From Ideonella aquatica (GTDB taxonomy: Bacteria; Pseudomonadota; Gammaproteobacteria; Burkholderiales; Burkholderiaceae_C), in assembly GCF_018069755.1 (NCBI RefSeq), contig NZ_JAGQDE010000014.1, positions 62,001 through 126,000 on the forward strand: 64,000 bases of DNA, given 5' to 3'. Under the pieces are notes generated by a model. The model ran no database searches, was not told the DNA's origin, and was given only the letters and a program-made list of their open reading frames with translations. How positions within the stretch are numbered: the stretch's first letter is position 1; each line of letters opens with the position of its first letter. Shown here in pieces: positions 4,908 through 64,000 of the stretch. The position numbers and the translations under genes are program-made.

Positions 4908-4961
4908 CGCTCAGTCCCAAACTACCGGACCGCTGCGCACGGCCCATCAGGAATTCTGTCC

Positions 4962-7469
4962 TCATGCCCAAGCCTCGGCCAGCAGGCTGCGCAGGCGGGT
5001 GGGCGAGAGCGGCTTGTGCACCAGGGTGATGCGCTGCTGCTCGGCCACCTGGGCCACCTCGCTGCTGAGGTCGCCGGTGACCAGCATCGCCTTGAGCTCG
5101 GGCTTGTGCAGGGCGCCGCGCACCCGCGCCACGTTGTCCAGCCCGCTCTCGTCTTCCAGATGCAGGTCGCTGAGCACCAGGTCCACCTCGGCGCCCGCAC
5201 CGGTGAGTTGCGGCAGCAGCTCGGCAGAGGAGGGCGCATCGATCACCTTCACCCCCCACGAGCGCAGCAGCGCCGCCATGGCCCCGCGTGAGACCTCGTC
5301 GTCCTCGATCAGCGCCAGCGTGCGTCCGGTGGGCAGTGCCCGCTGCGCCGCGGAGGCCGACTGCTCGCTGGGCGCCGCCGCCGGCAGCGTGAGGCTGATG
5401 CGCGTGCCATGGCCCGGCTCCGAGCGCAGTGCCAGCGGCCAGTGCAGCAGATCCGCCGCCCGCCGCACGATCGACAACCCGATGCCCAGGCCGCTGCTCT
5501 GGCCGGCCTCATCCACCCGCACGTAGGGCCGGAAGATGTCTTCCTGCTGGTGTGGCGGGATGCCCACGCCGCTGTCCTCCACGCTGAGCTCCACGCCCTG
5601 CGCCTGCGGCTCAATCCCCACCTTCACGTGGCCCGCCGGGGTGTACTTGATGGCGTTGGACACCAGGTTGAACAGCACCCGCCGGGTCAGGTGCAGGTCG
5701 GCATGCACCCGGGCGCTCACCCCCTCGGGCAGCTCCAGGCGCAGACCCTTGCGCCGTGCCAGCTCGCCGTACTGCAACCGCACGTCCTCGACCACTTCAG
5801 CCAGATCGAAGCTGCTGAGCACCGGCTCGTAGCGTCCGCCCTCGAGCTGGCCCAAGTCCATCAGCATCGACAGCATGTCCGACAGCGTCGCGCTGCTGCG
5901 CCGGATGTTGTGCAGCCACTGCTGGCGCCGCGCCGGGTCGTCCTCGGCGGCCATCAGGTCGGCCAACATGCCCAGGGCGTGGGCGGGCTGACGCAGGTCG
6001 TGGCAGGCCGCGGCGATCATCAGCGTGCGCGACTGGTTCAGGCCGTCGAGCTCGGCGTTGCGCGCCTGCAGCGTCTGCGACAGTCGTGCCAGCTGGCGCT
6101 TCTGGCGCAGTTGCACCGCCAGCAGCAGCAGGATCACCCCCGCCACCACCAGCGCCACCACCAGCCCGATTGTCACCAGCTGCCGCCGCTCGTCCAGGCG
6201 CTTCTGCTCTTCCTTCAGCAGCGCATTCTCCTGCTCCTTCTTCTGCACATCAAAGCGCGCCTGCGCATCCTGGCGCTCCTTCTCGTTGGAACGCCTTTCG
6301 CTGGACATCCGCTGCTTCTCGGCTTCCTTCATGTCCAGGTAGGCCTGCCTGAAATCGCCCAGGGCCGCATGGACGCGCGCCGAATCGGGCAGCAGAGAAA
6401 GCAGTTGGGTATGTGAGCCCACGTCTGCCGCCGCCTGATAGGCCAGCTGCAGCTGCTCTAGTGCGCCGCGGTCGCCGCTTTCGGCCAGGGCGATCGCCCA
6501 GAGGCTGTGGAAGTCGACTTTCTCGTCTGCCGAAAGTTGAGTGATGTGCACGCCCTTGAGCATGTCGACAGCCAGGGTGAATCGCGACAGCTGCATGGCC
6601 ACATCAGCCAGAAACCGACGAATGGTGCTCTCCCAACGATCAACCTTCAGGCGCTGGGCCAAGACCAGTGCACTCTGGTAGTCCGACAATGCATCGCTGT
6701 AGGCTTGGTTGGTGTGCTTGAGCTTGCCTCGGATCGCCATGACCGTCAGCCCGAAGTAGGGGTACTCATCCGCTGGAAGGATCTGCAGTGCCTCATCCAG
6801 GTTCGCCATGTCGGCCATCTGGGTTCCGGTTCCGTTGTTGAGCCCGAATCCGGTCTGTGCCTTGAGCATCAGTAAGTCAGCGCGGAGGGCTGAGGTACCG
6901 GCCTGTGCCAAGGCACTGTTGCAGATCTCCAAGGACTTCGAGAACTGGTCGTTGAACAGGTAGTAGGCAGCCTGGAGGTACAGCAGGATCACGCGAGCGG
7001 TGGCCGAACGCTCGACCAGACCATCGGCGGCCATGGCCTGCAGGTGACGCTCTGCAACCTCCATGTCCAGTTCGGACACTGCCAGCGAAAAGGCCTTGGC
7101 CCTCAGGAGAAAATCAGCCACTGGCTGTGTCTGCGCACCAGTCCGGGCCAGCTCGGCGTCGACCAGGCCACGAACCCGCCGAACGTCTTGCGTTTCTAGG
7201 TTCTGAGCAGCCTCGGCCATCTGAACCAGGGCAAGCACCCGGGCCCGCCGCACGGGGCCGGCGCTCGCCAGTTCTCGCTCGCCTTGGGCCAATGCTGCTC
7301 TGGCATCCCTGTAAACCGCGCGAGCGTTGGCCTCGTACCACGCCGGCCAGTCTGAGGCCAGATCGGAGGTGTCCAATGATGCCGCCTGGGCCGGACATTG
7401 AGACAGCAAGCCCACCATCAGCCAGAGCGTCCAGCCCATGACCCAACGCGCCATCGACCGTTGGCTCAC
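4962..7469 (-). CDS. Hybrid histidine kinase with periplasmic TPR-like sensor (kinase B)
   Basis: 835 aa if it starts at GTG 7469, which overlaps the upstream kinase stop in a GTGA (translational coupling); ATG 7454 is the alternative. A signal peptide (MARWVMGWTLWLMVGLL.. AQA) precedes about 370 residues of helical TPR-like periplasmic sensor. A single TM segment lies near 428-451, flanked by a charged coiled coil (QARFDVQKKEQENALLKEE). The HisKA motif is CHDLRQPAHAL with H490. The HATPase has NLVSNAIKYTP, EDSGVGIP and GLGIGLSIV. The C-terminal receiver has acceptor D768 (LVLSDLHL). From residue about 398 on it is almost identical to kinase A, while the sensor halves differ. The two probably feed the same partner from different signals. 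Antisense open frames here are codon-bias shadows. Confidence 0.9.
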   Translation of the reverse strand: MSQRSMARWVMGWTLWLMVGLLSQCPAQAASLDTSDLASDWPAWYEANARAVYRDARAALAQGERELASAGPVRRARVLALVQMAEAAQNLETQDVRRVRGLVDAELARTGAQTQPVADFLLRAKAFSLAVSELDMEVAERHLQAMAADGLVERSATARVILLYLQAAYYLFNDQFSKSLEICNSALAQAGTSALRADLLMLKAQTGFGLNNGTGTQMADMANLDEALQILPADEYPYFGLTVMAIRGKLKHTNQAYSDALSDYQSALVLAQRLKVDRWESTIRRFLADVAMQLSRFTLAVDMLKGVHITQLSADEKVDFHSLWAIALAESGDRGALEQLQLAYQAAADVGSHTQLLSLLPDSARVHAALGDFRQAYLDMKEAEKQRMSSERRSNEKERQDAQARFDVQKKEQENALLKEEQKRLDERRQLVTIGLVVALVVAGVILLLLAVQLRQKRQLARLSQTLQARNAELDGLNQSRTLMIAAACHDLRQPAHALGMLADLMAAEDDPARRQQWLHNIRRSSATLSDMLSMLMDLGQLEGGRYEPVLSSFDLAEVVEDVRLQYGELARRKGLRLELPEGVSARVHADLHLTRRVLFNLVSNAIKYTPAGHVKVGIEPQAQGVELSVEDSGVGIPPHQQEDIFRPYVRVDEAGQSSGLGIGLSIVRRAADLLHWPLALRSEPGHGTRISLTLPAAAPSEQSASAAQRALPTGRTLALIEDDEVSRGAMAALLRSWGVKVIDAPSSAELLPQLTGAGAEVDLVLSDLHLEDESGLDNVARVRGALHKPELKAMLVTGDLSSEVAQVAEQQRITLVHKPLSPTRLRSLLAEAWA
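4973..6276 (-). repeat. Copy 1 of a 1.3-kb near-identical kinase-module repeat
   Basis: The stretch aligns with 7477-8780 at a constant offset of 2504 bp with only scattered substitutions. It covers the coiled coil, TM segment, HisKA, HATPase and receiver of kinase B. Similarity ends abruptly at CTGGCGC (6271-6276), where the sensor halves diverge. Confidence 0.9.
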
Positions 7470-9964
7470 GTCAAGGCCTCGGCCAGCAGGCTGCGCAGGC
7501 GGGTGGGCGAGAGCGGCTTGTGCACCAGGGTGATGCGCTGCTGCTCGGCCACCTGGGCGACCTCGCTGCTGAGGTCGCCGGTGACCAGCATCGCCTTGAG
7601 CTCGGGCTTGTGCAGGGTGCCGCGCACCCGCGCCACGTTGTCCAGCCCGCTCTCGTCTTCCAGATGCAGGTCGCTGAGCACCAGGTCCACCTCGGCGCCC
7701 GCACCGGCGAGCTGCGGCAACAGCTCGGCGGAAGAGGGCGCATCGATCACCTTCACCCCCCACGAGCGCAGCAGCGCCGCCATGGCCCCGCGTGAGACCT
7801 CGTCGTCCTCGATCAGCGCCAGCGTGCGTCCGGTGGGTAGCGCCCGTTGCGCCGCGGAGGCCGACTGCTCGCTGGGCGCCGCCGCCGGCAGCGTGAGGCT
7901 GATGCGCGTGCCCTGGCCCGGCTCCGAGCGCAGCGCCAGCGGCCAGTGCAGCAGATCCGCCGCCCGCCGCACGATCGACAACCCGATGCCCAGGCCGCTG
8001 CTCTGGCCGGCCTCATCCACCCGCACGTAGGGCCGGAAGATGTCCTCCTGCTGGTGTGGCGGGATGCCCACGCCGCTGTCCTCCACGCTGAGCTCCACGC
8101 CCTGCGCCTGCGGCTCAATCCCCACCTTCACGTGGCCCGCCGGGGTGTACTTGATGGCGTTGGACACCAGGTTGAACAGCACCCGCCGGGTCAGGTGCAG
8201 GTCGGCATGCACCCGGGCGCTCACCCCCTCGGGCAGCTCAAGGCGCAGACCCTTGCGCCGTGCCAGCTCGCCGTACTGCAACCGTACGTCCTCGACCACC
8301 TCAGCCAGATCGAAGCTGCTGAGCACCGGCTCGTAGCGTCCACCCTCGAGCTGGCCCAAGTCCATCAGCATCGACAGCATGTCCGACAGTGTCGCGCTGC
8401 TGCGCCGGATGTTGTGCAGCCACTGCTGGCGCCGCGCCGGGTCGTCCTCGGCGGCCATCAGGTCGGCCAGCATGCCCAGGGCGTGGGCGGGCTGACGCAA
8501 GTCGTGGCAGGCCGCGGCGATCATCAGCGTGCGCGACTGGTTCAGGCCGTCGAGCTCGGCGTTACGCGCCTGCAGCGTCTGCGACAGTCGTGCCAGCTGG
8601 CGCTTCTGGCGCAGTTGCACCGCCAGCAGCAGCAGGATCACCCCCGCCACCACCAGCGCCACCACCAGCCCGATTGTCACCAGCTGCCGCCGCTCGTCCA
8701 GGCGCTTCTGCTCTTCCTTCAGCAGCGCATTCTCCTGTTCCTTCTTCTGCACATCAAAGCGCGCCTGCGCATCCTGGCGCAGCTTTTCATTCGCGGCACG
8801 CTGCCGCTCGGTACGGAGCTTTTCGGTCTCCCGCATGCTCAGGTATGCCTGCTTGTCGTCACCCAAGGCGTGGTAGATCCGGGCGGCATCGGTGTGGAGG
8901 TTGAAGTTCTGTCCGACCATGTCCACCTGCTGACCCAGCTTCTGCGCCTGCTGCAGGTGCACCAGCGCAGAGCGGTCTCCCAGCTCCGCCAGCGCCACGG
9001 CCCAGGCCATATGGGTCGCCAGTTGCTCGGCAACCGAGAACTGGTTCAAGTCCATCCTTTGGACCGTGTCCACCGTCAGACGGTAGTCGCCCAACAGATT
9101 GGCATCGATGGCAATCATGGATCGCAGCACATTGGCCCAATAGGCCGACTGCTGTTGCTCCGCCAGTGCCAGCGCGCGCTGGTAATCCGCCAATGCCGCG
9201 GCGAAGGCTTGGTCCATCTGGTTGAGCTGAGCCCGCAGCATCAGACCCTGGATGCCAAAGTAGGGATAGGTGTCGGGCGGCAGCAGATTCATGGCCTCGG
9301 CAAGACTCGCGCGGTCTGCATTCCGGGCGGATGGGCCTGTCACCGTGGAGACCACGCCCGATTGAGCCTTGGCCGCCAGGACCAGCGCCCGCATGGTGTC
9401 CGACTTTGTCTGCGGCAGCACCTCGTTCAACGCTTCCACGGCCTTGCCGGCCTCACCCGCCAGCAGCATCTGACGAATGGCCTGAGAGAGCAGCAGGATG
9501 ACCCTGGGCAGGCCCGGGGTCTGGGCCAGAGGATCGGACTGCATCACCTGCAGGTGCCGATCCGCCTCGGCCACATCAGCCACCTGCATACCCATGCCCC
9601 AGGCCTCGGTCTCCAACAGAAACCTCAACAGTCCAGTGGCGCCTGCGGGCCGCGCCAGTTCTGCCTGTACCAAGGGCCGCACGGTCACGACCTCGGTGAC
9701 GCCCAAGAGCTGGGCGGCCTCGGACATGCGTATCAAGGCCTGGGCACGGGCAACCGGATCGGTGCCTTGACGGGCCGATTCCCATTCCGCCCGGGCTTGG
9801 GTGATCAGGGCCCGGGGCGCCTGCAGGGCCGCACGCTGGGCTTGTTCGTACCAGAGCGGCCAGGTGTCGCCGCCACTGCCTGGGCCGACTCCAGGAGCAG
9901 CCTGCGCCAGGGCAGCCAACAGGCAGGTCATCGCCATCAGCAGGCGTCGCGTCCATCCGTGCAT
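7466..9964 (-). CDS. Hybrid histidine kinase with periplasmic TPR-like sensor (kinase A)
   Basis: 832 aa from ATG 9964, chosen because MHGWTRRLLMAMTCLLAALAQA is a good signal peptide; ATG 9994 and 10036 are possible. The layout matches kinase B: signal peptide, about 370-residue helical TPR-like sensor domain, one TM segment, coiled coil, HisKA with H487 (CHDLRQPAHAL), HATPase, and receiver with D765. The sensor half is only distantly similar to that of kinase B, although the order of helices and the PxDxYPYFG block are shared. The cytoplasmic half is nearly identical in DNA sequence. It is the first gene of a three-gene unit: kinase A, kinase B, REC-GGDEF. The stimulus is not evident. The divergent fimbrial operon 0.6 kb away is a candidate target. 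Confidence 0.9.
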   Translation of the reverse strand: MHGWTRRLLMAMTCLLAALAQAAPGVGPGSGGDTWPLWYEQAQRAALQAPRALITQARAEWESARQGTDPVARAQALIRMSEAAQLLGVTEVVTVRPLVQAELARPAGATGLLRFLLETEAWGMGMQVADVAEADRHLQVMQSDPLAQTPGLPRVILLLSQAIRQMLLAGEAGKAVEALNEVLPQTKSDTMRALVLAAKAQSGVVSTVTGPSARNADRASLAEAMNLLPPDTYPYFGIQGLMLRAQLNQMDQAFAAALADYQRALALAEQQQSAYWANVLRSMIAIDANLLGDYRLTVDTVQRMDLNQFSVAEQLATHMAWAVALAELGDRSALVHLQQAQKLGQQVDMVGQNFNLHTDAARIYHALGDDKQAYLSMRETEKLRTERQRAANEKLRQDAQARFDVQKKEQENALLKEEQKRLDERRQLVTIGLVVALVVAGVILLLLAVQLRQKRQLARLSQTLQARNAELDGLNQSRTLMIAAACHDLRQPAHALGMLADLMAAEDDPARRQQWLHNIRRSSATLSDMLSMLMDLGQLEGGRYEPVLSSFDLAEVVEDVRLQYGELARRKGLRLELPEGVSARVHADLHLTRRVLFNLVSNAIKYTPAGHVKVGIEPQAQGVELSVEDSGVGIPPHQQEDIFRPYVRVDEAGQSSGLGIGLSIVRRAADLLHWPLALRSEPGQGTRISLTLPAAAPSEQSASAAQRALPTGRTLALIEDDEVSRGAMAALLRSWGVKVIDAPSSAELLPQLAGAGAEVDLVLSDLHLEDESGLDNVARVRGTLHKPELKAMLVTGDLSSEVAQVAEQQRITLVHKPLSPTRLRSLLAEALT
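7477..8780 (-). repeat. Copy 2 of the 1.3-kb near-identical kinase-module repeat
   Basis: Partner of 4973-6276 with the same length and orientation, encoding the output half of kinase A. The low divergence next to strongly divergent sensors indicates recent duplication or continuing gene conversion. Confidence 0.9.
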
Positions 9965-53556: not shown

Positions 53557-56500
53557 TCAGATCCCGAAGCGCTGGTTCTTCAGCCGGGCGCCCAGCACCT
53601 CAGCTGCCGTGCGCACATCGACCTCGGAAGCGTTGCGCTCCACGAAGGCCAGCAGGTCCACCAGCAGCGGGCGGGCTTCCAGGAAGTCGGGCATCTCGGC
53701 CTGCAGCTGGCTGATGATGGTCTGCGGCTCCAGGTCGGCGCGCATCTGCTGCAGCGCAATCACCAGCCGGCCCAGGCGCGTGGCGCCGAGCTCGGTGCTG
53801 TCGGTTAGGTCGCGCGAGGCGAACTCGGTCACTTGCTTCAGCCTTGCCTCGTTGGGCGCCATGCTGGCCATCACGCGGGCGTAGTCCTGCACGCGGAAGG
53901 CCTTGGCGAAGTTCTGGTAGTTGTCCAGCTTGCGGGCGCCCGTGGTCTCCATGTCCATCATGCGCAGCAGGAAGCGCTCTATGCCGGACAGCTTGCCCCA
54001 GGTGTCTGCCGCCAAGCCCTCGGGTACCAGCAGGTTGCTGGCCGCTTCGGCGGCCTGTTGAACGATCTCGTCCACCACCGTGAACTCGCCCTTCACCCGC
54101 GGGCGCAGCGCGAAGCTGGTCACGTCTTCGCCTCCGATATGGGTGTAGCCGGTCAGCACCTTCAGTGCCGCGGCGTAGCCGGCCATCTGCAGGTCGGAGT
54201 CGTTGAACACAGGCTCGCCGTGGTGGGCCTTCACCGCGGTGTTCAGGTGCATCATGGTCCGGATCTGCCGATCCACCTCCTGCCGCACGGCGGGCAGAAG
54301 GCGCTGCTTGAAGGCAGGCCGGTCACCGGCCGGGCGCTTGCGCAGCATCAGCGTCACCGTGCCTTGCACGTAGCCGCCCTTCTTCAGTTCGGACGTGGTC
54401 TCGGTGGCGATGTACCAGGCTGCCACCACCTGCAGCCCCGCGGCCCAGAAGATGCCAACGAGATCACTCCAGACACCGGTGTCCTGGTGCGTGAACATCA
54501 CGCACTGCATGCCGTTGTCGGGCATGTGTGTCGCCATCGCGGTGTAGGCCGCCACCATGTTGCGGCGGAAGTCTTCGCCAGAGCCTTGTATGGCCAGCGC
54601 GCGCCTGGAGTCCCACACCCAGGAGTCGAACGGAGCCGGTGGGTTGCGACGCAGCCAAGCGATGAAGAACTCGGTGATCTCGTGGTAGTTGACAGCGTCC
54701 GCGTAGGGTGGATCGGTGATCCAGAGGTCGCAGGCCTCGGAGACCTCGTGTGCGGGGTGGTTCCGCAGCGTGTGGGTGACGCCCGCGGGGATGGGCGCAT
54801 GGGCGTTCTCGCCGTCCAGTGGGTCAAGTAGGCAACTCGAAGCCCGGCACCCGTAGTTGTAGAGAACGTTCAGCGCCTGGTTGTCGAACACCTGCTTGGT
54901 GCCGCCGCTGCGGCCGTCTCCGTCGCCAGTGGACCAGCGGGTGAGGCGGGCGCTGGTGTTGATCATCTGGCATGCCTTGAGACAGAGCTCTGCTGTCGCG
55001 TGCCTGCGCAGCTCGGCGTACAGGAGCAGCTGCCGTGCGTTGAAGAGGTGATGCCAGTGAGTCCAACCGCGTTCCCTTCCAAGCCTGGCGGTCTCGTCTC
55101 CAGCCTCAATCACCATGTCGGGCACGATCCCTTCGGCTTGCCACGCCGCCAGGTTGCGCGCAACGATTCGCTGCACTTCAGCTTCGCGCTCCAGGTCCTC
55201 GTCCGTTGGCGCCGCGAAGTAGGTGCGGGGGCGTGGGTCTGAGACGGTCGTGCCGTCGATCCACTGGATCGCGTACACCCGCTCTTGAAGCGTGTCGCCC
55301 GGGAGCGGGCCGAAGTCTTCACGTCCCCATCGGCGCAGCTTGTTCTGGGTGGTGCCATCGGCGTCGCGATAGTCGCCCCGCAACGTACGGATGGGAATGC
55401 GGTAGGTCTTGCCGTTCAGCTCGTAGACCAGGGCCCCGTCCCTCACGGTGCCGTTTGCAGCGGCCTTCATCTCTGCTGCTGATGCACCGTTGACGACTCG
55501 GATGTCGAAGCGCTGCTCCGCCTCGTTCGGAACGAGCTTAGCGATGACGTTACCGTTCTTGGAGATGACCAGTGACGGCAGGAGGGGTACGAGCCAGCCA
55601 CTCTCGGGGCAGCGTGTCTCCAAGCAGTACAGATAGACCTTGGCTTGGTTGCCAGATGAGTCGCGCTCGATGCCCAGCTTGCGAACGGACTCCTTGACCG
55701 CCTTGGCAACTGCCCTTTGCTGGCGCTCGAGTTCGGCGTGCCTGGCTGCGTCTGTGCCGACGATGTTCAAGGCACCCCAGGTGAGCATGCAGGCGATGGG
55801 ATTCAGGTCCGACGCGAACGCATCGCAACCGATCCTGGCTGCTTCAAAAGGGATGGAGCCACCACCGGCGAAGGTGTCCCCCACGCGCGCACGTCGGCCG
55901 TAGCGGAGCTGGCCCAGCTGCCCTACGAGTTCGGGGATGCTGCGGGCGTCGATCCCAAGGTGCGCGTAGTGCCGGTTCACATCGGCCCAGATCGGCTCGA
56001 ACAGCCATTCGTCGTCGACCTCCTCCGGCCGCTTGCCCAGATCCGAGCGTTGCTCGTACGAATCTAGCGTTGCGATGTAGCGGCGATACAGCTCCAACTT
56101 CTGTTCAGGTTCGATGTCGCGCCGCCAGCGCAGCGTGATGCCTCTCTCATCGCAATCGAGCGGGAAGGTCCAGTACGCCAGCTGCCCCTCCTCTGGCTCC
56201 TCGCCCTTCACCTTTGCAGTGAAGAAGGCCCATGGATTAGCCAAAGAGATGCGCTTGGCCATATCGTGTGGCTTCACGCCGTCAGCGACAAACGCCCGGC
56301 GAGCCAAGCCCTCTGGGTCAAAGCCCATCAGCTTCTCGAAAACGTCAAGGTCCCGCTCGGCGTCGTCGGTCTGCGGTAGCAGCACACCGAGCACGATGGC
56401 CCTTACAAGGATCAACGGCTTGCGTCCCTTCCAGTAGGACCCCAGGCCGGTCAGCGTTTGGTAGAGGTTGGCCTTCCGCTCGCGTTGAGCTTCATGCGAG

Positions 56501-56583
56501 ACCTTCTGCACCGGGAACACCGATTCGATCAGTGCCGGTGTGTCGCGCAGTGCGCCGGGGGTGAGGTTGGGGCGGTTGGTCAT
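53557..56583 (-). CDS. DUF1156 DNA methyltransferase of a defence operon
   Basis: 1008 aa. The N terminus is a DUF1156 domain (IESVFPVQKVSHEAQRERK..). SAM-binding motif I is near residues 233-245 (GDTFAGGGSIPFEAARIG). The catalytic motif DPPY is at 624-627 (LWITDPPYADAVNYHE), indicating an amino-methyltransferase (N6A or N4C). A helical C terminus of about 200 residues completes it. In the operon it would mark self DNA or act as a sensor of unmodified DNA. The motif order (I before DPPY) is the beta/gamma-type arrangement, unlike many restriction systems, with a long insert between. Start ATG 56583 follows the AlbA-type gene by 9 bp. Confidence 0.88.
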   Translation of the reverse strand: MTNRPNLTPGALRDTPALIESVFPVQKVSHEAQRERKANLYQTLTGLGSYWKGRKPLILVRAIVLGVLLPQTDDAERDLDVFEKLMGFDPEGLARRAFVADGVKPHDMAKRISLANPWAFFTAKVKGEEPEEGQLAYWTFPLDCDERGITLRWRRDIEPEQKLELYRRYIATLDSYEQRSDLGKRPEEVDDEWLFEPIWADVNRHYAHLGIDARSIPELVGQLGQLRYGRRARVGDTFAGGGSIPFEAARIGCDAFASDLNPIACMLTWGALNIVGTDAARHAELERQQRAVAKAVKESVRKLGIERDSSGNQAKVYLYCLETRCPESGWLVPLLPSLVISKNGNVIAKLVPNEAEQRFDIRVVNGASAAEMKAAANGTVRDGALVYELNGKTYRIPIRTLRGDYRDADGTTQNKLRRWGREDFGPLPGDTLQERVYAIQWIDGTTVSDPRPRTYFAAPTDEDLEREAEVQRIVARNLAAWQAEGIVPDMVIEAGDETARLGRERGWTHWHHLFNARQLLLYAELRRHATAELCLKACQMINTSARLTRWSTGDGDGRSGGTKQVFDNQALNVLYNYGCRASSCLLDPLDGENAHAPIPAGVTHTLRNHPAHEVSEACDLWITDPPYADAVNYHEITEFFIAWLRRNPPAPFDSWVWDSRRALAIQGSGEDFRRNMVAAYTAMATHMPDNGMQCVMFTHQDTGVWSDLVGIFWAAGLQVVAAWYIATETTSELKKGGYVQGTVTLMLRKRPAGDRPAFKQRLLPAVRQEVDRQIRTMMHLNTAVKAHHGEPVFNDSDLQMAGYAAALKVLTGYTHIGGEDVTSFALRPRVKGEFTVVDEIVQQAAEAASNLLVPEGLAADTWGKLSGIERFLLRMMDMETTGARKLDNYQNFAKAFRVQDYARVMASMAPNEARLKQVTEFASRDLTDSTELGATRLGRLVIALQQMRADLEPQTIISQLQAEMPDFLEARPLLVDLLAFVERNASEVDVRTAAEVLGARLKNQRFGI

Positions 56584-56592
56584 GCGGCGGCT

Positions 56593-58548
56593 TCAGGCAC
56601 GGTAGGCCTGGTCCGGGTCATTGGGTTTGTCGGGCCGGGTCATAGCGATCCGGCCGGCGCGCAGCAGCGGGCGCAGGTAGTTCTGGCGCACGGTCTCAGC
56701 GTTGCGGCCCAGCAGGGCCGCGATCTCCTCGGCCCGCCAGGGGCGCAGTTCGCAGAGCGCTACCACCAGGTCTTGCACCTCCTGCGGCGGGCGGCGCTGG
56801 CCGATGGCGCCCACCCGGGCGGCCAGGCCGCCGGGCAGCTCGTTCAGCAAGGCCTGGCGGCGCGGGTCGGCCAGCGGGTCATCCCGAGGTTCGGGTTGTC
56901 GAGGGTTACTGTCCTGGGAGCTGAGGTTGCTAGACAAGGCGCCGGGGTTACTAGATAAGCCGAGGGGGTTACTAGACAAGCCGGTCCTGCCCGAGCCTTG
57001 GGCAGCAAGTTCTCCGGCATTCTGGGCCGCGCCGTCCTGGCCGCCATCATGGTCATTGCGGCCGAGCATCCGGGCGGTGGGCTGGTACCAGGTGGCCGAT
57101 CCGCGGTCCTTCTGGGTGAAGAGGCCGGCGTCGCGCAGCCGGCGCAGCGCCTTGCTCGCGGCCAGGGTGTCCACCTTGTTGATCTCGCGGTAGGTCTGGT
57201 TGTCCATGGCCCCGGCCTCGCGGGCCACCACCAGCGCGCGCGCCTCGGCCTCGGAGAGCTGCAGCTCCTTGAACCGCGCCAGCCAGGCCAGGTCGTCCGG
57301 CCCCAGGAAGTGGTGGAAGAAGAGGCGCAGCGTGAACTGGTCCTGCCCGCGGTCAGACTCGAAGAGCGGCGGCGCCAGGCCGGCGCGCTCGCACATCTCT
57401 CGCATCACCCGCACGCCGCTGCCCTTGGTCTCGGCAAAGCGGGTGTCGTACAGCGCGGCGGCCACCTTGGGGTTGCGCGGTACCGAGCCGGGTTCGCCCA
57501 GGTGATCGGGCGACTTGAGCGAGAAGCCCGGGTTGCGGATCTCCAGCCGGTTGCTGTAGCGAATGATCTGCACCGGCGCCTGCAGCCGGTAGCTGCGGTG
57601 CATCAGCGCGTTGACGACGGCTTCGCGGATCACTCGCTGGGGGACGAGTGGGCTGTCCTGCCGCTGCAGTTCGCCCTCGGCCAGGCCGAAGGCTTTGGGC
57701 AGGTCGTCAAGGATGGCGGCCTGTGCGCGGCGGATCAGGCGGAACAAGGGGTCGCGCAGCTCGACGGTGTCGAAGCGGCGGTCCGGGTCGGGCACCCAGT
57801 CGCGGCCGGGCACGCGGATGTAGTCCACGCGCGTCATCGGGAAGCAACGGCGCAGCGCCACGGGCTTGCCCAGCAGCACCAGGCCGGCCACTGTGGGCTG
57901 CCAGGCCCCCTGCGCGTTGCGGCGCACGGCACCCAAGGCCTGCAGCAGCTCTTCGTCGGACCAGCGCAACTCTTCGGCGTCGGGGTTGGCCTCGCGGCGG
58001 GCGACGCGGTAGTCGGCGATGGCTTCGGGGGACAGGTCGTCGAGCGTGGTGTCGGGCACCAGGCCGGAGTCGAAGCTCTCCACCTGGCGGGCCTGGTACA
58101 GCGCGATCAGGTCGTCCTCGGTGCAGCGCTGGTCGGTGCTGCAGATGCGGCGGAAGGCTCCGCGCGGCAGGCCCTGGGCCTTCAGGTAGACCGGTTTGTC
58201 CTGCGGTGCCGCCTCGGGCACGAACACCACGAGCACCACTTTGCCTTCGAGCTGCTCGGTACGCACTTCCAGCCGCACGGGCTGGTTGAACATGCTGGCC
58301 GCCTGGGTGGCGAGGTCGGTGCCCACGCGCTCGGGCTGCTCCACGCCCTCCACCGAGTAGCCGGGAAAGAGCGCCATCTCCTCGCGCACTACGCCCAGCA
58401 GCAGCCAGCCGCCGCCCATGCCGGGTTCGTTGGCGAAGGCACAGACGGTTTCCATGACCGACTTGCCCACGTCGGAGCCCGCCTTGGCTTCGATACGCTC
58501 GGTTTCGTCGAGCAGCTGCAGGCGTTCGAGCAGCTCCTGAGCGGTCAT
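56593..58548 (-). CDS. AlbA/Schlafen-type ATP-binding protein of the defence operon
   Basis: 651 aa. Residues 1-150 form an AlbA_2/Schlafen-like domain (ERIEAKAGSDVGKSVMETVCAFANEPGMGGGWLLLGV). Residues 300-420 form a GHKL-type ATPase C-terminal module (VIREAVVNALMHRSYRLQAPVQI.., GSVPRNPKVAAALYDT, KGSGVRVMREMCE). Winged helices follow at about 440-510 and about 590-640. Between them is a flexible linker with a repeated LSSNP unit (GLSSNPLGLSSNPGALSSN). This type of protein occurs in regulators and nuclease-like effectors of several defence systems. It overlaps the DUF3780 gene by 4 bp (ATGA). Confidence 0.85.
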   Translation of the reverse strand: MTAQELLERLQLLDETERIEAKAGSDVGKSVMETVCAFANEPGMGGGWLLLGVVREEMALFPGYSVEGVEQPERVGTDLATQAASMFNQPVRLEVRTEQLEGKVVLVVFVPEAAPQDKPVYLKAQGLPRGAFRRICSTDQRCTEDDLIALYQARQVESFDSGLVPDTTLDDLSPEAIADYRVARREANPDAEELRWSDEELLQALGAVRRNAQGAWQPTVAGLVLLGKPVALRRCFPMTRVDYIRVPGRDWVPDPDRRFDTVELRDPLFRLIRRAQAAILDDLPKAFGLAEGELQRQDSPLVPQRVIREAVVNALMHRSYRLQAPVQIIRYSNRLEIRNPGFSLKSPDHLGEPGSVPRNPKVAAALYDTRFAETKGSGVRVMREMCERAGLAPPLFESDRGQDQFTLRLFFHHFLGPDDLAWLARFKELQLSEAEARALVVAREAGAMDNQTYREINKVDTLAASKALRRLRDAGLFTQKDRGSATWYQPTARMLGRNDHDGGQDGAAQNAGELAAQGSGRTGLSSNPLGLSSNPGALSSNLSSQDSNPRQPEPRDDPLADPRRQALLNELPGGLAARVGAIGQRRPPQEVQDLVVALCELRPWRAEEIAALLGRNAETVRQNYLRPLLRAGRIAMTRPDKPNDPDQAYRA

Positions 58549-59225
58549 TCCGTACCGTCGCTGAAAAGGTCGAGCGTCAGCCGCTGGCCCACGACACCGC
58601 TGTCACGGGTGACAAGCGCGCGGCGCGCGCGCGGTGACAGCAGCTCGCTCTGCGCCACGTCGCCCAGCGCATGGCGCAGGGCCAACCGCCAACCCTTGTC
58701 ACCGTCTCCGATGCCGCCGGTGCTCATCGCGGTCATGCCGAAAAGCCACCAACGTTCTTCGGGGCGCAGCGCGAGCCAGTTGCGCACAGCGACGGGGATC
58801 TTCTCCATCTCCATGTGCTCAACCGCCCAGACCAACACGCACAGCTCCTTGCCCAGCAGCCGATCGACTGGGTTGTCGCCAGCCTTCCAGGCGCTGGGCT
58901 TAAGGTGGTGCGCTCCGAGACGGGCATTGAAGGCGCGTTGCGCTTCGGCGCGAATGGCGGTCCAGCGCGCCCGGTCGAGCACCGCCCGATCAATCACAGA
59001 GTGCTCGTTGCTCAGGGCCTGCAGGCCGAGGTACTCGCTCAGCTGCACGGGAGCGGTGTTGCTACGCGGGACAAACACCTTGAAGTGATGCGGGTCCGAG
59101 GTAGCTGGCACTCCGAAGCCCAGTGTCGGCCGTACATCAGCGAATGCTCCGCTCGAGGTGGTTGCGGACGCCGTGACGTTGGCATTGAGCGCTGCGGCAG
59201 TGCGGGTGGGCCTGGGTTTTGCCAT
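58545..59225 (-). CDS. DUF3780 protein of the defence operon
   Basis: 226 aa from ATG 59225, strongly supported by AGGAGG 9 bp upstream. After a disordered N terminus, the conserved part reads TLGFGVPATSDPHHFKVFVPRS.., WTAIRAEAQRAFNARLGAHHL.., LLGKELCVLVWAVEHMEMEKIPVAVRNWLALRPEERWWLFGMTA. DUF3780 genes are known to me only from DUF499/DUF1156 anti-phage loci. It may be an adaptor between the ATPase and methyltransferase. It starts 4 bp after the DUF499 stop. Confidence 0.85.
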   Translation of the reverse strand: MAKPRPTRTAAALNANVTASATTSSGAFADVRPTLGFGVPATSDPHHFKVFVPRSNTAPVQLSEYLGLQALSNEHSVIDRAVLDRARWTAIRAEAQRAFNARLGAHHLKPSAWKAGDNPVDRLLGKELCVLVWAVEHMEMEKIPVAVRNWLALRPEERWWLFGMTAMSTGGIGDGDKGWRLALRHALGDVAQSELLSPRARRALVTRDSGVVGQRLTLDLFSDGTE

Positions 59226-59229
59226 CGAT

Positions 59230-62200
59230 TCAGTCCTCCTGGACAACGTCACCGGGCCTCAGCTCCAGTCCCACCAGCTTCGCAAACTCCTTGGCTGCGA
59301 AGCCGGTGTCGAAGTGGGCGCCGTCGCTGACGTTCACGACCACTGGCGCTTGGTCTTCGGCCAGCAGCCGGCGCAGGCTGTTGATCACGCCCTCAATCAC
59401 GCTGGCAGTGACCTCGCGCTCCTGGAAGCGCACGGTCACAGTATTCTCTCCCTCACCGATCTCGATGCGCACGCCCTTGAAAAGAGTTCCAGGTAGATCT
59501 CGGAAACGGTTGATGACACCAAACACGCGGTCGGTGGTGTCCAGGCTGATGCGCTTGGGTTGCAGTTTGACGGGTTTGGTGTCGTTGATTTGGACGGTCT
59601 TGTCGCCGCTGGCCGGAATGTGGAAGTCTGCCGTCTTGATAGCCTCGCCGGCGCGGGCATGAACGAGCAGTCGGGCTGCGGTGGCGCCAATCTCGAACGG
59701 CCCTTCGTAGGCCAAGCCGTCGCGCGGGTTGGAGCCGTCCAACGTGTAGGTCAGCGTGGCCTTGGGCGCGCACGCCAACGTGACGCGGCGCTTGTCGGCG
59801 GCGGGCTCCACCTGGTGGCGGATCTTCAGCTCGGCGGTCCAGCGAACGGGCGTGCCGGTCTCATAGTGGCCCGTGGTGTCTCGGGCGAGGAAGTACAGCG
59901 TGCCTTCCGTCGTGGTGAAACTGTCGAGGTCCTCGACTGACTGCCCGTTCACCAGCCCCTCGGGGCGGGTGGCGTACACCACCACCGGGCTTTCGCCCGC
60001 GTGGCGCGGCGTGAGACTCAGGATGGTGGCGCCCGTGTCAGGCTGGGTGCCAATGACCGACACGTTGACCGTAGTCTTGTCCTTTGGGAACGGCCCCTTC
60101 TCGATGTACCCGTCTTCACCCAGGCGCCAGCGGCCTTGCTTCAGGGCCTCGGTCTTCAGCGTGTCCATGCCACCTGAGCCAGGCATCCAGGGCCAGTCGG
60201 GGTTGCTCTTGGCACGCGCGACCACGTCTTTCCACGGCGTGCGGCGGTTGTCCTTGCCCGAAGGCCACAGAACTTCTTCCGCCATGGCGAAGTATTCGCC
60301 GAAGCTGTCTGTCAGGTTGGCGGCCAGCTTGTAGTTGGCGCGCGGGCTGGCCAGCAGCGTCTCGATCTGAGCCTCGGCGGACTGCTCGCCCTTGCCGAGC
60401 TTGAGGCCGTTGTCGATGGTGACGTTGGCCAGGAAGTGCCGGCCGTCGATGGGATCGGAGCTCGGGAAGTAGACCCGGTTGTAGGCAGCGGAGAGCGCCT
60501 TGGCAAAGCGGCCTTCCGCTTCTTCGAGCCGGTCACGCGCCTCCTCGAACAGGGTGTCGCCAGCCTTCAGGCGCTTGTGGATTTGCTCGATGGCGTAGAG
60601 CTCACGCAGGCGGTCTTCCACAGCGTCGGCCAAGTGACTGTCTTGCCCCGTCAGCACCAGCAGATTGTTCTTCTCCTGTTGGTAGTCGAAGAAGTTCTGC
60701 AACTCGCTGGGCGGGACCTTGCCGTCCGGCTTGATGACGATGAGGGTGCGTGGGCCGCTCAGGCGGATCTCGTCGAGGCGGGGCAGCACCTGCACGTCTT
60801 GGTAGGCCTGTCGCCTGTCCGGCTGGAGGATGCCGGTGAGCCGGTTAATAAGCGCCTGGTCGATCTTGGGCTGTGGCACCTCTTTGGCGTTGCGCTCGAT
60901 CTGGCGCGAGAGGTTCTCGGTCTCCTTGACGAAGAGACGCTGGTCCTCGCGGTGCAGATACCAGGCTTGCTCGCGCAGCCTCTGCAGGACCTGCAGGAAC
61001 TCGTCGGGCTTGCGGCCAGGTGCGGCGAGAAACTCAATGACCTCGCTCTCTGAAAGTCCGATGCGACCGCCCACTGCGCGGGACAGCGACGACGCCAGCA
61101 GCAGCGTCATCACCTGGCGGGATGCGTCGGTATCGAGCTCGGCGTCGATGGTCTCGGCGATTGCGTTGCCTTTGTCAGCGATGTCCCGCGTGACTGCCGG
61201 CAGCAGCTTGGGGGCGATGCGCTCGATCTCGTCGCGTACCTGGTCATCGTTGAGGGCGAGATGCTGGGCGCCAATGAGGTGGACATCATCGTCTTCGCGC
61301 TGCGCCACGCTCTTGAGCAGCCGCGCGGTGAACTGCATCAGCCCGCGGGTCTGTCGGAAACCTTCGTTCTCCTTGAACAGGGCGACGAGGTGCTTGAAAG
61401 ATGGATGGAAAGGGTAGGTCTCCCGGACCTGTTCGGCAATCTGCTCGATGCTGGCCGCGACGATGTAGCCTGCGTCCTCGGCCTTCTTGACCTGTTGTGC
61501 GTACTCCTCGGCCACGTCGGAGATGACGCGCTCGCTGGGCATCTCGTCGATGAGACGTGTCTTCAAGATCTCGTAGATCTCGTTGCCGGCCAGCTGTACC
61601 GGAGTGATCGTCATCGCTTGACGGCGCGTCTCCTGCTGAAGGTTCGAGATAGCGTCGGTCAACGCCTTGGTCTGCGCCTGGTAGCTGCCAGACAGGTTGG
61701 CGACGACGATGCAGCAATTGGGCAGTTCCAGCGCCGCACTCATCAGGGTGGCCAGCGAGAACACCACCATGTTCGCCAGGGTGCCTTGCCCGAAGACCTG
61801 GGTGCTAGCGTTGTCCAGGTAGGGCGGCAACTCGTCAAGAAGGATCAGGGTCGGCTTGTCGCCGATGATCTCTTTCCACTTCGCCTGGTCGACGGACTTC
61901 GGGCCGTTGGCCCAGTAGGGCTTGATCGCTTCGGGCTCGCCCAGCTGCGTGGCGATATCCCCCCAGATGTAGTTGTCGGGCGTGTTGCGGCCATTGAAGG
62001 CTGCGATGCGTGCCTGGCCGAAGTCGATACGGTCCTTCAGGTCGGCCGGCAGTACTTCCTGCCGCAGGTTCGGGTGGCGCGCCAGCAGTCCCAGCGCGAT
62101 CATCATGTGCGTCTTGCCGCCGCCCATCGCCTGGGTCAATTCGAATACCGCTTGATCCGACTTTCCAGACAGTCGCAGAAGGCCCTCGCGGAACAACTGC

Positions 62201-62352
62201 GCCATGCCGTGGGTGACGAAGTTGCGCGAAAAGAACTCGCGCCCATCCCCGGCGTCGTGAATGAGGTCGGCCAGGTTCTCGATACCCTGGCTCATCCGGT
62301 AGTCGTAGATGGCCGCGCTGAAGCGGCAGGCCTGCTTGACGGTCTTGATCAC
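59230..62352 (-). CDS. DUF499 ATPase of the defence operon
   Basis: 1040 aa from GTG 62352, chosen because its GTGA overlaps the stop of the RHH gene (62349) and GGGAG precedes it; longer starts run through the RHH gene in another frame. The ATPase core is near the N terminus: Walker A AMGGGKTHMM with K80 and Walker B LILLDELPPYL with D173/E174. The long C terminus has beta-rich repeats (TLACAPKATLTYTLDGSNPRDG.., Fn3/CHB-like) and a final EVTASVIEGVINSLRRLL segment. DUF499 proteins occur in several anti-phage loci and are large STAND- or AAA-like ATPases. It is the first of the five large genes. Confidence 0.88.
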   Translation of the reverse strand: MIKTVKQACRFSAAIYDYRMSQGIENLADLIHDAGDGREFFSRNFVTHGMAQLFREGLLRLSGKSDQAVFELTQAMGGGKTHMMIALGLLARHPNLRQEVLPADLKDRIDFGQARIAAFNGRNTPDNYIWGDIATQLGEPEAIKPYWANGPKSVDQAKWKEIIGDKPTLILLDELPPYLDNASTQVFGQGTLANMVVFSLATLMSAALELPNCCIVVANLSGSYQAQTKALTDAISNLQQETRRQAMTITPVQLAGNEIYEILKTRLIDEMPSERVISDVAEEYAQQVKKAEDAGYIVAASIEQIAEQVRETYPFHPSFKHLVALFKENEGFRQTRGLMQFTARLLKSVAQREDDDVHLIGAQHLALNDDQVRDEIERIAPKLLPAVTRDIADKGNAIAETIDAELDTDASRQVMTLLLASSLSRAVGGRIGLSESEVIEFLAAPGRKPDEFLQVLQRLREQAWYLHREDQRLFVKETENLSRQIERNAKEVPQPKIDQALINRLTGILQPDRRQAYQDVQVLPRLDEIRLSGPRTLIVIKPDGKVPPSELQNFFDYQQEKNNLLVLTGQDSHLADAVEDRLRELYAIEQIHKRLKAGDTLFEEARDRLEEAEGRFAKALSAAYNRVYFPSSDPIDGRHFLANVTIDNGLKLGKGEQSAEAQIETLLASPRANYKLAANLTDSFGEYFAMAEEVLWPSGKDNRRTPWKDVVARAKSNPDWPWMPGSGGMDTLKTEALKQGRWRLGEDGYIEKGPFPKDKTTVNVSVIGTQPDTGATILSLTPRHAGESPVVVYATRPEGLVNGQSVEDLDSFTTTEGTLYFLARDTTGHYETGTPVRWTAELKIRHQVEPAADKRRVTLACAPKATLTYTLDGSNPRDGLAYEGPFEIGATAARLLVHARAGEAIKTADFHIPASGDKTVQINDTKPVKLQPKRISLDTTDRVFGVINRFRDLPGTLFKGVRIEIGEGENTVTVRFQEREVTASVIEGVINSLRRLLAEDQAPVVVNVSDGAHFDTGFAAKEFAKLVGLELRPGDVVQED

Positions 62353-62549
62353 GAAGAGGCTCCCTTGGCCGCGCGCTTGTTGCTGGTGGACGCATCTGTG
62401 GCGATGCCCTTGACCCTGCAATGCTCGCGGATCATCACCTCGACCATGTTGGCGATGGAGCGGTGTTCCAACTCGGCAGCCCGCTGCAGCGCTTCCTTGA
62501 TCTCTGGTCCGATGCGAAGCGTTAGAGTGGCGGTCTTGCTGGCAGCCAT
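62349..62549 (-). CDS. Ribbon-helix-helix protein coupled to the defence operon
   Basis: 66 aa from ATG 62549, with AGAGGA upstream. TATLTLRIGPEIKEALQRAAELEHRSIANMVEVMIREHC is a complete ribbon-helix-helix domain. A basic tail follows (SNKRAAKGASS). RHH proteins are repressors or antitoxins. Its stop overlaps the DUF499 start (GTGA), so it should be made in step with the ATPase and probably represses the operon promoter. Confidence 0.82.
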   Translation of the reverse strand: MAASKTATLTLRIGPEIKEALQRAAELEHRSIANMVEVMIREHCRVKGIATDASTSNKRAAKGASS

Positions 62550-63055: not shown

Positions 63056-63236
63056 CACCATCCTATTTTGTAGTCAGGGCCCAGTGGCCGGCTCGGGAAG
63101 GGCCCGATCCCGGCGGGCCACGCCCTCATCTGTGTCGCGGTTGGGCTCACACTTGGTTGGGCAATATGGCCGGTTGACGTTGGCCCGCCAGCAGGCTCAC
63201 AATCCATCTGCTTGCTGGCTGCCCTGCAGCCCGGTA

Positions 63237-63404
63237 GTGGCACGAAACGCCACGCCCTCAACATCGTCAGGCTCCTGCAATAGCGATGGGGTCCAGCCGT
63301 CAGGCCCGGACTCGGGAGTTGAATCTCCTCTTGCCGAGTGGCATTGCCCCCGAGCGCACCCGCCGTGTGTGTCCTCGGGGGGCAATGTCGCCCGCGCACA
63401 CAGG
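63237..63404 (+). ncRNA. Candidate structured RNA, copy 1
   Basis: It precedes the 61-aa gene at 63412. Hairpin I is GTGGC..GCCAC (63237-63253). A shared block AGGCTCCTG..AGCGATGG follows. Hairpin II pairs GTCC/GGAC and GCC/GGC (63291-63311). Hairpin III pairs GGAG/CTCC (63315-63328). Hairpin IV is a 13-bp stem CATTGCCCCCGAG (63342-63354) with CTCGGGGGGCAATG (63374-63387, one bulge). Copy 2 at 63705 keeps the order with different bases in the stems. Confidence 0.5.
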
Positions 63405-63411
63405 AGCCCCC

Positions 63412-63597
63412 ATGGCACACGCTGCCGTCCTCCCTGGCCACGATGAGGCCACGCCCGAACGCATGGCATCCGCCGGCGTCCCCTTTGAGACCGCGTGGTG
63501 GTATCACCTCATCGGTCGCAGACTGACGCGCTTTTCGGAGCGTGACATCGATCGCATCATGGAAGTGCGTCGTCTCGTTGCCGAGGCGAGTCTGTGA
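63412..63597 (+). CDS. 61-aa ICE protein of unknown function
   Basis: ATG 63412 follows CAGGAGCCCCC. The product contains a short helical region (AGVPFETAWWYHLIGRRLTRFSERDIDRIMEVRRLVAEA) and no recognised domain. It sits just after the first structured-RNA copy, in the same relation as the DUF3577 gene to the second copy. Confidence 0.5.
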   Translation: MAHAAVLPGHDEATPERMASAGVPFETAWWYHLIGRRLTRFSERDIDRIMEVRRLVAEASL

Positions 63598-63610
63598 CTT
63601 CCTGTGGACC

Positions 63611-63668
63611 CCGGCTTGAGGCCGGGTTCTTCAAGCGCTTGAGTACTGCACCGGGCGCTTGAAGAACC
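63611..63668 (+). terminator. Double hairpin after the 61-aa gene
   Basis: CCGGC-TTGAG-GCCGG (63611-63625) is followed by a perfect 14-bp inverted repeat GGTTCTTCAAGCGC (63625-63638) / GCGCTTGAAGAACC (63655-63668) with a 16-nt loop. It may terminate transcription from the 61-aa gene or act as a protein or processing site. Confidence 0.4.
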
Positions 63669-63704
63669 AGGTTTCCCTGCCTGACCGACTCAATCGGTCC
63701 GACC

Positions 63705-63833
63705 GTGGCACGTTACGCCACGCCCAGACACCGAAAGGCTCCTGAAAGAGCGGTGGACCTGCCGGCCCTCAAGCCGGCAGCCTGGAGTTCAGTTCCATCA
63801 ACCCCCTGGGGATGTCATCCATCCCCGGCGGGG
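63705..63833 (+). ncRNA. Candidate structured RNA, copy 2
   Basis: It lies upstream of the DUF3577 gene. Hairpin I is GTGGC..GCCAC (63705-63721). The shared AGGCTCCTG (63736-63744) and AGCGGTGG follow. Hairpin II is CTGCCGGC/GCCGGCAG (63759-63780). Hairpin III pairs TGGA/TCCA (63783-63797). Hairpin IV pairs GGGGATG/CATCCCC (63808-63826) extended by CCCC/GGGG. I recall that a structured RNA motif upstream of DUF3577 genes has been reported; this may be it, unverified. Confidence 0.55.
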
Positions 63834-63870
63834 CTGGGTGCGTCCCCTTTCTTGTCACTGGAGATGCACC

Positions 63871-64000
63871 ATGCCTGAAGCACAAGCCCAAACCGTCTCG
63901 ATGTTCAACCTGATCGTCGAGGGTGTCGGCTACCTCAACCGGGTTCGTTCCGTCACGCCGAAGAAGGGGCCCGCCTACCTGGCGTGCACCATCAACGCGA
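63871..64000 (+). CDS. DUF3577/STY4534-family ICE protein, partial
   Basis: The gene runs off the right window edge. ATG 63871 follows TGGAGA. The visible 43 residues (MPEAQAQTVSMFNLIVEGVG.., RVRSVTPKKGPAYLACTINA) match the start of DUF3577 proteins, OB-like ssDNA-associated proteins of SPI-7/PFGI-1 elements. Its presence shows that the conjugative element backbone resumes here. Confidence 0.8.
   Translation, partial: MPEAQAQTVSMFNLIVEGVGYLNRVRSVTPKKGPAYLACTINA

Follow-up and report, generated by a model that had tools for sequence, protein, structure and literature searches.

The elements E1 and E2 are probably 5′ leader elements of ICE mRNAs. As read from their sequences, they would control translation through a pseudoknotted module and a hairpin over the start site (hairpin V); they appear to have the layout of radC RNA and to form a new sequence class. 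The window is the whole 64,000-nucleotide stretch that was analyzed (contig C5, positions 62001-126000, in a genome of 5.17 Mb), and locus L005 extends the reading past the window end. The host element is an ICE of the STY4534 family that carries DUF3577, DUF3275, DUF6094, RadC, and a helicase.

Leader elements of the window ICE

An earlier note on this DNA described two copies of a structured RNA-like element, each before a gene start. The segments at 63237 and 63705 lie where they had been placed, and the common blocks are exact: GTGGCACG..ACGCCACGCC at 63237 and 63705, and AGGCTCCTG at 63269 and 63736. The gene after E2 is certainly DUF3577. The 61-aa gene after E1 is less certain because, among the loci compared, this ORF was matched in a near-identical Ideonella alba locus alone. 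The parts of both leaders are listed in Table 1.

Table 1. Features of the E1 and E2 leaders and of the genes that follow them (window positions).
Feature	Sequence	Position	Strand	Remark
E1 upstream hairpin P0	GCCAGCAGG..CTTGCTGGC	63187-63219	+	Pairing read from sequence; element membership uncertain
E1 hairpin I	GTGGC/GCCAC, then GCCC	63237-63253	+	
E1 hairpin II	CATCG/CGATG	63262-63288	+	Conserved loop GGCTCCTGCAA at 63270-63280
E1 pseudoknot 5′ strand	GGCTCC	63270-63275	+	Putative; within hairpin-II loop
E1 hairpin III	GTCC/GGAC	63291-63311	+	
E1 pseudoknot 3′ strand	GGAGTT	63315-63320	+	Putative; in linker
E1 long GC-rich hairpin	GCATTGCCCCCGAG/CTCGGGGGGCAATGT	63341-63388	+	Between element and start codon
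ORF 3′ of E1		63412-63597	+	61 aa; no Pfam/NCBIfam match
Long perfect hairpin 5′ of E2	GGTTCTTCAAGCGC/GCGCTTGAAGAACC	63625-63668	+	
E2 hairpin 0	GACCG/CGGTC	63683-63699	+	
E2 hairpin I	GTGGC/GCCAC, loop ACGTTAC, then GCCC	63705-63721	+	
E2 hairpin II	CACCG/CGGTG	63729-63755	+	Loop with GGCTCCTGAAAG
E2 pseudoknot 5′ strand	GGCTCC	63737-63742	+	Putative
E2 hairpin III	CTGCCGGC/GCCGGCAG	63759-63780	+	
E2 pseudoknot 3′ strand	GGAGTT	63784-63789	+	Putative; in linker
E2 hairpin IV	CCCCCTGGGGAT..ATCCCCGGCGGGG	63802-63833	+	
E2 hairpin V	GGGTGCGTCCCC paired with GGAGATGCACC	63836-63870	+	Masks Shine-Dalgarno GGAG (63860-63863), directly 5′ of DUF3577 start codon
DUF3577	STY4534-family ICE replication protein	63871-64000, continues to C5 126344	+	157 aa

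The full E2 leader folds as hairpins 0, I, II, III, IV, and V with z = -4.24, and 1 of 200 dinucleotide shuffles was as good. The full E1 leader gave z = -4.13, with 0 of 200 shuffles as good, and shorter cuts of the two leaders gave z = -3.52 and just -1.80. The stem of hairpin 0 also precedes E4, E5, and the Rubrivivax and G430 copies. A long hairpin with arms TTCTTCAAG/CTTGAAGAA stands upstream of E2 (63625-63668), and a similar one is found upstream of E5 in L005.

The two copies of the earlier note are both real, but they are part of a larger set. The window ICE holds six leaders, namely E1, E2, and, beyond the window end, E3, E4, E5, and E7. E3 is upstream of DUF3275, E4 and E5 are upstream of proteins without a Pfam match, and no such leader element was visible at the radC gene of this ICE. 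A covariance model (R1) was built on hairpins I and II only, from six copies including E1 and E2. R1 recovered five of the six leaders, all in L005, with scores of 79.9 bits for E1 and 89.8 bits for E2; E7 was missed by R1 and recognized by eye. The same model found two copies on contig C11, five in Ideonella alba, two in Rubrivivax rivuli, and four in genome G430. The I. alba DUF3577 is 96% identical to that of the window ICE, and one of the four G430 copies is upstream of the G430 DUF3577. The contig C11 pair is near-identical and about 26 kb apart (L006:7791-7878 and L007:7839-7926, both on the minus strand), and each member is upstream of a similar small membrane-like ORF.

Wider searches returned few copies. 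R1 gave matches at E ≤ 0.1 in 8 of 299 genomes of the family, and the element is genuine in the source genome and G430 only; the other six matches (E = 0.017-0.099) resemble coding DNA when inspected by eye. Over 300 genomes of the order, R1 matched the source genome alone. The window type is rare, as these 299 family and 300 order genomes hold no other believable R1 match. When 150 family genomes were searched for the literal motif, four matched, and each of the three besides the source had a single match with one mismatch. Distant blastn searches of plasmid and phage collections gave no copy. A pattern match in a viral contig scored 11.6 bits and resembles coding DNA, and the matches of a broad regular expression for the hairpin-II loop were mostly due to chance. 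A permissive search for promoters picked out two promoter-like sites, 5′ of E1 and of E5.

Conserved hairpins and the loop-linker pairing

Window-type leaders were aligned (A8; 13 copies, 12 distinct) and scored for pairing and for two-sided changes. Hairpins I and II had 100% paired cells, with two-sided change at 9 of 10 pairs in the 12 distinct copies (5/5 in hairpin I and 4/5 in hairpin II), and RNAalifold likewise predicted these two hairpins. With the pseudoknot included, the structure had 96.9% paired cells and two-sided change at 10 of 16 pairs. Its covariation score was reached by 0 of 500 shuffles, and slid controls were 34-46% paired. Counts of further pair types were not clearly above shuffles in the window type (241/500) or in the class C alignments A6 (19/500) and A10 (40/500) described below. 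The covariation across homologues on which the earlier note hinged is present in the 12 distinct copies, and its picture of a structured, covarying element repeated before ICE genes agrees with the two-sided changes, the shuffles, and the R1 scores.

The hairpins of that note needed some reassignment. Its second hairpin, GTCC/GGAC in E1 and CTGCCGGC/GCCGGCAG in E2, is correct and is renamed hairpin III here; it is present in the window type but too variable for alignment. Its third hairpin, GGAG/CTCC in one copy and TGGA/TCCA in the other, falls away as a conserved helix since the registers differ between E1 and E2. The GGAG in question is part of the conserved GGAGTT, whose complement GGCTCC lies in the hairpin-II loop. 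The single-strand MFE of both E1 and E2 nonetheless includes a local hairpin at GGAGTT. The earlier note did not mention the likeness to radC RNA, the pseudoknot, a hairpin over the Shine-Dalgarno site, or the additional copies.

The hairpin-II loop is almost invariant in the window type, GGC(T/C)CC(T/C)GNAA, and is complementary to the linker GGAGTT or GGAGTG. Of the six putative pseudoknot pairs, one shows two-sided change, with C-G in place of T-A in each contig-11 copy, and 6 of the 12 copies lack the outermost pair. Swapped loop and linker partners did as well as the true ones in 7269 of 20,000 trials (n = 11). The window-type and class C elements of the swap tests were picked after a pairing-based scan, which makes the counts for both lean towards a pseudoknot. 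Because swapping partners changes nothing in the window type, the case for its pseudoknot rests on its relatives.

These relatives are class C leaders and radC RNA. Thirteen class C sequences (alignment A6) had two-sided change at three of six pseudoknot pairs and zero broken cells, and with own partners compared to swapped ones, 0 of 20,000 swaps were as good (n = 21). A larger class C alignment (A10; 30 sequences from 16 loci) was 98.7% paired, with two-sided change at 14 of 19 pairs. Its pseudoknot was 98.3% paired with two-sided change at five of six pairs; A10 is cleaner on this point as the pseudoknot is absent from the search model, yet its 16 loci are a selection out of the 89 that were searched, and the alignment was fitted to hairpins I and II. 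No shuffle of 500 reached the A10 covariation score, and slid controls were 29-49% paired. For radC RNA, 0 of 20,000 swaps were as good (n = 24, including one copy, L054 at 4195, that was parsed with the wrong hairpin II and kept), and loops such as GATC, GGTC, CGGTC, and GCAACC meet their complements in the linker. These comparisons indicate that the hairpin-II loop and the linker form a covarying pseudoknot in class C and radC RNA. A MAFFT alignment of all types (A4) misaligns hairpin I and was left out of the counts. Of 49 non-redundant DUF3577 leaders, 29 fit a sequence-blind descriptor of the layout, and 20 shuffled sets gave a mean of 2.5 and a maximum of 5.

Comparison with radC RNA and class C leaders

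The element suits the earlier description of a little-known regulatory RNA candidate because it is absent from Rfam 15; neither E1 nor E2 was matched at the gathering score or at E ≤ 10. Motifs named after DUF3577 reportedly appear in one published study, and the earlier note mentioned such a name. Within Rfam, the name was not borne out when all 4227 families were run over DUF3577 loci, where radC RNA was the only family near DUF3577. The accessible publications that mention DUF3577 include none on an RNA, judged by title. Searches of the accessible literature on DUF3577, on radC as a motif or an RNA, and on leaders in ICEs gave no report of the element; few subscription papers are covered, so this does not prove its novelty.

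radC RNA was catalogued in 2010 as a probable cis-regulatory RNA and has had no assigned function since. It resembles the window type in the order of its parts (hairpin I, GCCC, hairpin II with a large conserved loop, hairpin III, and linker), in the loop-linker pseudoknot layout, in the occurrence of several copies per ICE, and in its place before ICE genes, among them DUF3577 and the E4-gene homologue. The conserved loop of radC RNA is CUUCAA (CTTCAA), whereas the window type has GGCTCCTGNAA (CTGNAA), and the stem sequences differ too. The E2 leader shows no counterpart of GCAUCC..GgAuGC, the 3′ hairpin of radC RNA, and has hairpin V instead. E7 and the contig-11 copies, unlike radC RNA, lack GCCC after hairpin I. 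A 2020 study (PMC7657543) states that some covarying pairs of radC RNA are missing from its database structures.

Relatives were collected with an alignment of DUF3577 proteins from 11 ICEs (A2), and 80 named loci were fetched, the best 80 of 239. Twelve loci were scanned for radC RNA, ten of them picked as radC-like and two of window type, so the following counts are not a census. radC RNA was found in 10 of the 12 and in neither window-type locus. The 24 radC RNAs of these ten loci precede DUF3577 (10), the E4-gene homologue (4), the ORF h homologue (1), and genes unmatched in the window ICE (9). Six of these nine genes belong to one recurring family of about 260 aa (MD..R.QMPTLV.GHVPRN; L099:3926, L035:2339, L063:4591, L054:4195, L061:4178, and L073:4141), which has no homologue among the window-ICE proteins tested. 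radC RNA also precedes DUF3577 in L019, L128, L108, and L041 (229 nt 5′ of the DUF3577 match in L041), whereas the two are separated by a hypothetical gene in L129. The copy at L128:2772-2917 (+) is upstream of a STY4534-family gene in a plasmid record named for VIM-2. The contig of one DUF3577 ICE locus, from a Gemmatimonadetes MAG, holds a Cobalamin riboswitch (L043:8038-8256, +, 116.5 bits).

Class C leaders (e.g., L085, L096, and L104) share with the window type hairpin I, hairpin II, the pseudoknot, hairpin IV, and a Shine-Dalgarno hairpin before DUF3577. They differ in having their own sequence, with GGTCACTGCGG..CAGTGAC in hairpin I and the loop GGRYCGTGCAA, and neither R1 nor the class C model (R2) detects the other type. 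R2 gave 67 matches at E ≤ 0.1 over 89 sources, 30 of them within 260 nt 5′ of DUF3577, and in 20 loci a match near DUF3577 was accompanied by a further one. Among 31 copies tested away from DUF3577, four precede homologues of DUF3275, the DUF6094 methyltransferase, or RadC, 15 have no ORF by the rule used, and 12 have ORFs without a match in the window ICE. Rfam 15 gave no match to class C in 13 loci scanned, nine of them class C-bearing. L033 and L034 are intermediate, with the hairpin-I loop CCGTTAC, GCCC, and the hairpin-II loop CAGATCTCCTGAGA.

The covariance models of the window type, class C, and radC RNA do not detect one another; the common descent of the three leader types is therefore argued only from layout and gene position. 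All three occur before DUF3577, the window type and class C before DUF3275, and the window type and radC RNA before the E4 gene or its homologue; the three types thus stand at equivalent genes of one ICE kind. The STAXI motif, a pseudoknot found in mobile elements close to DNA-binding protein genes, was also considered. It is described as two or three tandem repeats (Weinberg 2010, PMC2864571). The window leaders likewise carry a putative pseudoknot near such genes, but they consist of a single module per gene, in which three hairpins are combined with one over the Shine-Dalgarno site, rather than tandem pseudoknots.

The window-type leaders might simply be diverged radC RNA that lies beyond a narrow Rfam model and functions no differently, a credible account that we do not favor. 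The hairpin order, the GCCC after hairpin I, the pseudoknot layout, and the gene positions are all alike and speak for it. Against it, the radC RNA model (RF01754, 40-bit threshold) matched neither E1 nor E2 at E ≤ 10 and none of E3-E7 at E ≤ 5, and the loop and the 3′ hairpin set the types apart. radC RNA was absent from the Ideonella and Rubrivivax loci. The best reading is that the window-type leader is a variant of the radC-RNA kind outside RF01754 membership. Since radC RNA layout, a covarying pseudoknot, and gene positions are shared by leaders that are otherwise unlike, a single motif would become a family, and one tied to a single event, the moment when mobile elements of this large class are transferred.

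Proposed translational control and competing explanations

The DUF3577 leaders examined end in a GC-rich hairpin IV followed by an inverted repeat that spans the Shine-Dalgarno site. Hairpin V formed with its own partners at -15.9 kcal/mol versus -12.8 kcal/mol with swapped partners, and 0 of 20,000 swaps were as good. This analysis covered 51 non-redundant sequences of 78 DUF3577 starts, after 4 of 82 leaders without a start codon plus ribosome site were dropped. The hairpin predicted to mask the Shine-Dalgarno site covaries in DUF3577 leaders, where compensating changes preserve its fold. The 3′ arrangement of E2 recurs in E5 and in G430, and no clear hairpin V is seen before E1, E3, or E7.

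The leader probably controls when gene-transfer proteins are made. It would be transcribed together with its gene, and hairpin V would hold translation low. The pseudoknotted module may sense a signal, which could be an ICE or host protein or RNA, or the kinetics of transcription or translation, and its refolding would open or lock the start site. The outcome would be joint production of the ICE DNA-processing genes at the right step of transfer. A broader and distinctly speculative extension is that STY4534/ICEclc-kind elements run a post-transcriptional regulon, in which radC RNA, class C, the window type, and probably other leaders go back to one ancient pseudoknotted leader, stand before many of the DNA-processing genes, and let one trans signal switch the translation of these genes jointly during transfer. 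ICEclc control as published concerns transcription factors, in the part of that literature available (PMC7423338). If it holds, a leader-based layer of control would be new for such ICEs.

The main rival to translational control is transcription attenuation, which is unlikely. In this account the terminator (GGGG..GTCCCC, then a U-rich stretch) would arise when the 3′ arm of hairpin IV pairs with the 5′ arm of hairpin V, and hairpin IV or V would be the anti-terminator. Terminator-like sites lie within the E2, E4, and E5 leaders (7 in 4.25 kb versus 2.7 in shuffles), and terminator-like hairpins occur in 6 of 7 window-type leaders. The non-redundant DUF3577 leaders are enriched for them as well, with 18 of 54 compared with a mean of 5.3 and a maximum of 11 after shuffling, and control may be transcriptional for this reason. 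The other 36 of the 54 have no terminator-like hairpin, however, and the covariation of Shine-Dalgarno masking across the DUF3577 leader set argues for translational control instead.

It is improbable that the copies act at the DNA level, as ICE-activator sites, single-strand promoters used on ssDNA entry, replication or nicking sites, or recombination repeats. Single-strand promoters do precede leading-region genes of conjugative plasmids, and the leaders occur in many copies per mobile element upstream of DNA-processing genes. The stem sequences, however, vary freely with their pairing intact, which differs from a protein-binding site on double-stranded DNA, and hairpin V covaries around the Shine-Dalgarno site. 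The wobble cells (30 G-U versus 2 A-C in A6 and A8) fit the sense strand of an RNA, and they would fit the sense strand of ssDNA too.

A direct switch, in which the hairpin-II loop CUCCU pairs with either the linker GGAG (on) or the Shine-Dalgarno GGAG (off), is very doubtful: the E1 loop GGCTCCTG (63270-63277) is a perfect 8-base complement of its Shine-Dalgarno region CAGGAGCC (63402-63409), and the two are paired in the single-strand MFE of E1, but the contig-11 loop is GGCCCC and the linker follows it (GGGGTT) while the Shine-Dalgarno stays AAGGAG, and the loops of class C and radC RNA do not have an anti-Shine-Dalgarno sequence.

Other features were recorded in the window. The sole Rfam match at the gathering score is part of a group II intron (RF01999; 28347-28473, +, 68.1 bits). 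The ICE core has neighboring cargo at 53557-62421 (-) that encodes DUF1156, Schlafen/RecG-C, DUF3780, and DUF499 proteins, a make-up that we take to be defense-like. A direct repeat of 300 nt, 96% identical, is present at 4961-5260 and 7465-7764 with a spacing of 2504 nt, and further short identical strings with the same 2504-nt spacing reach to about position 8521.
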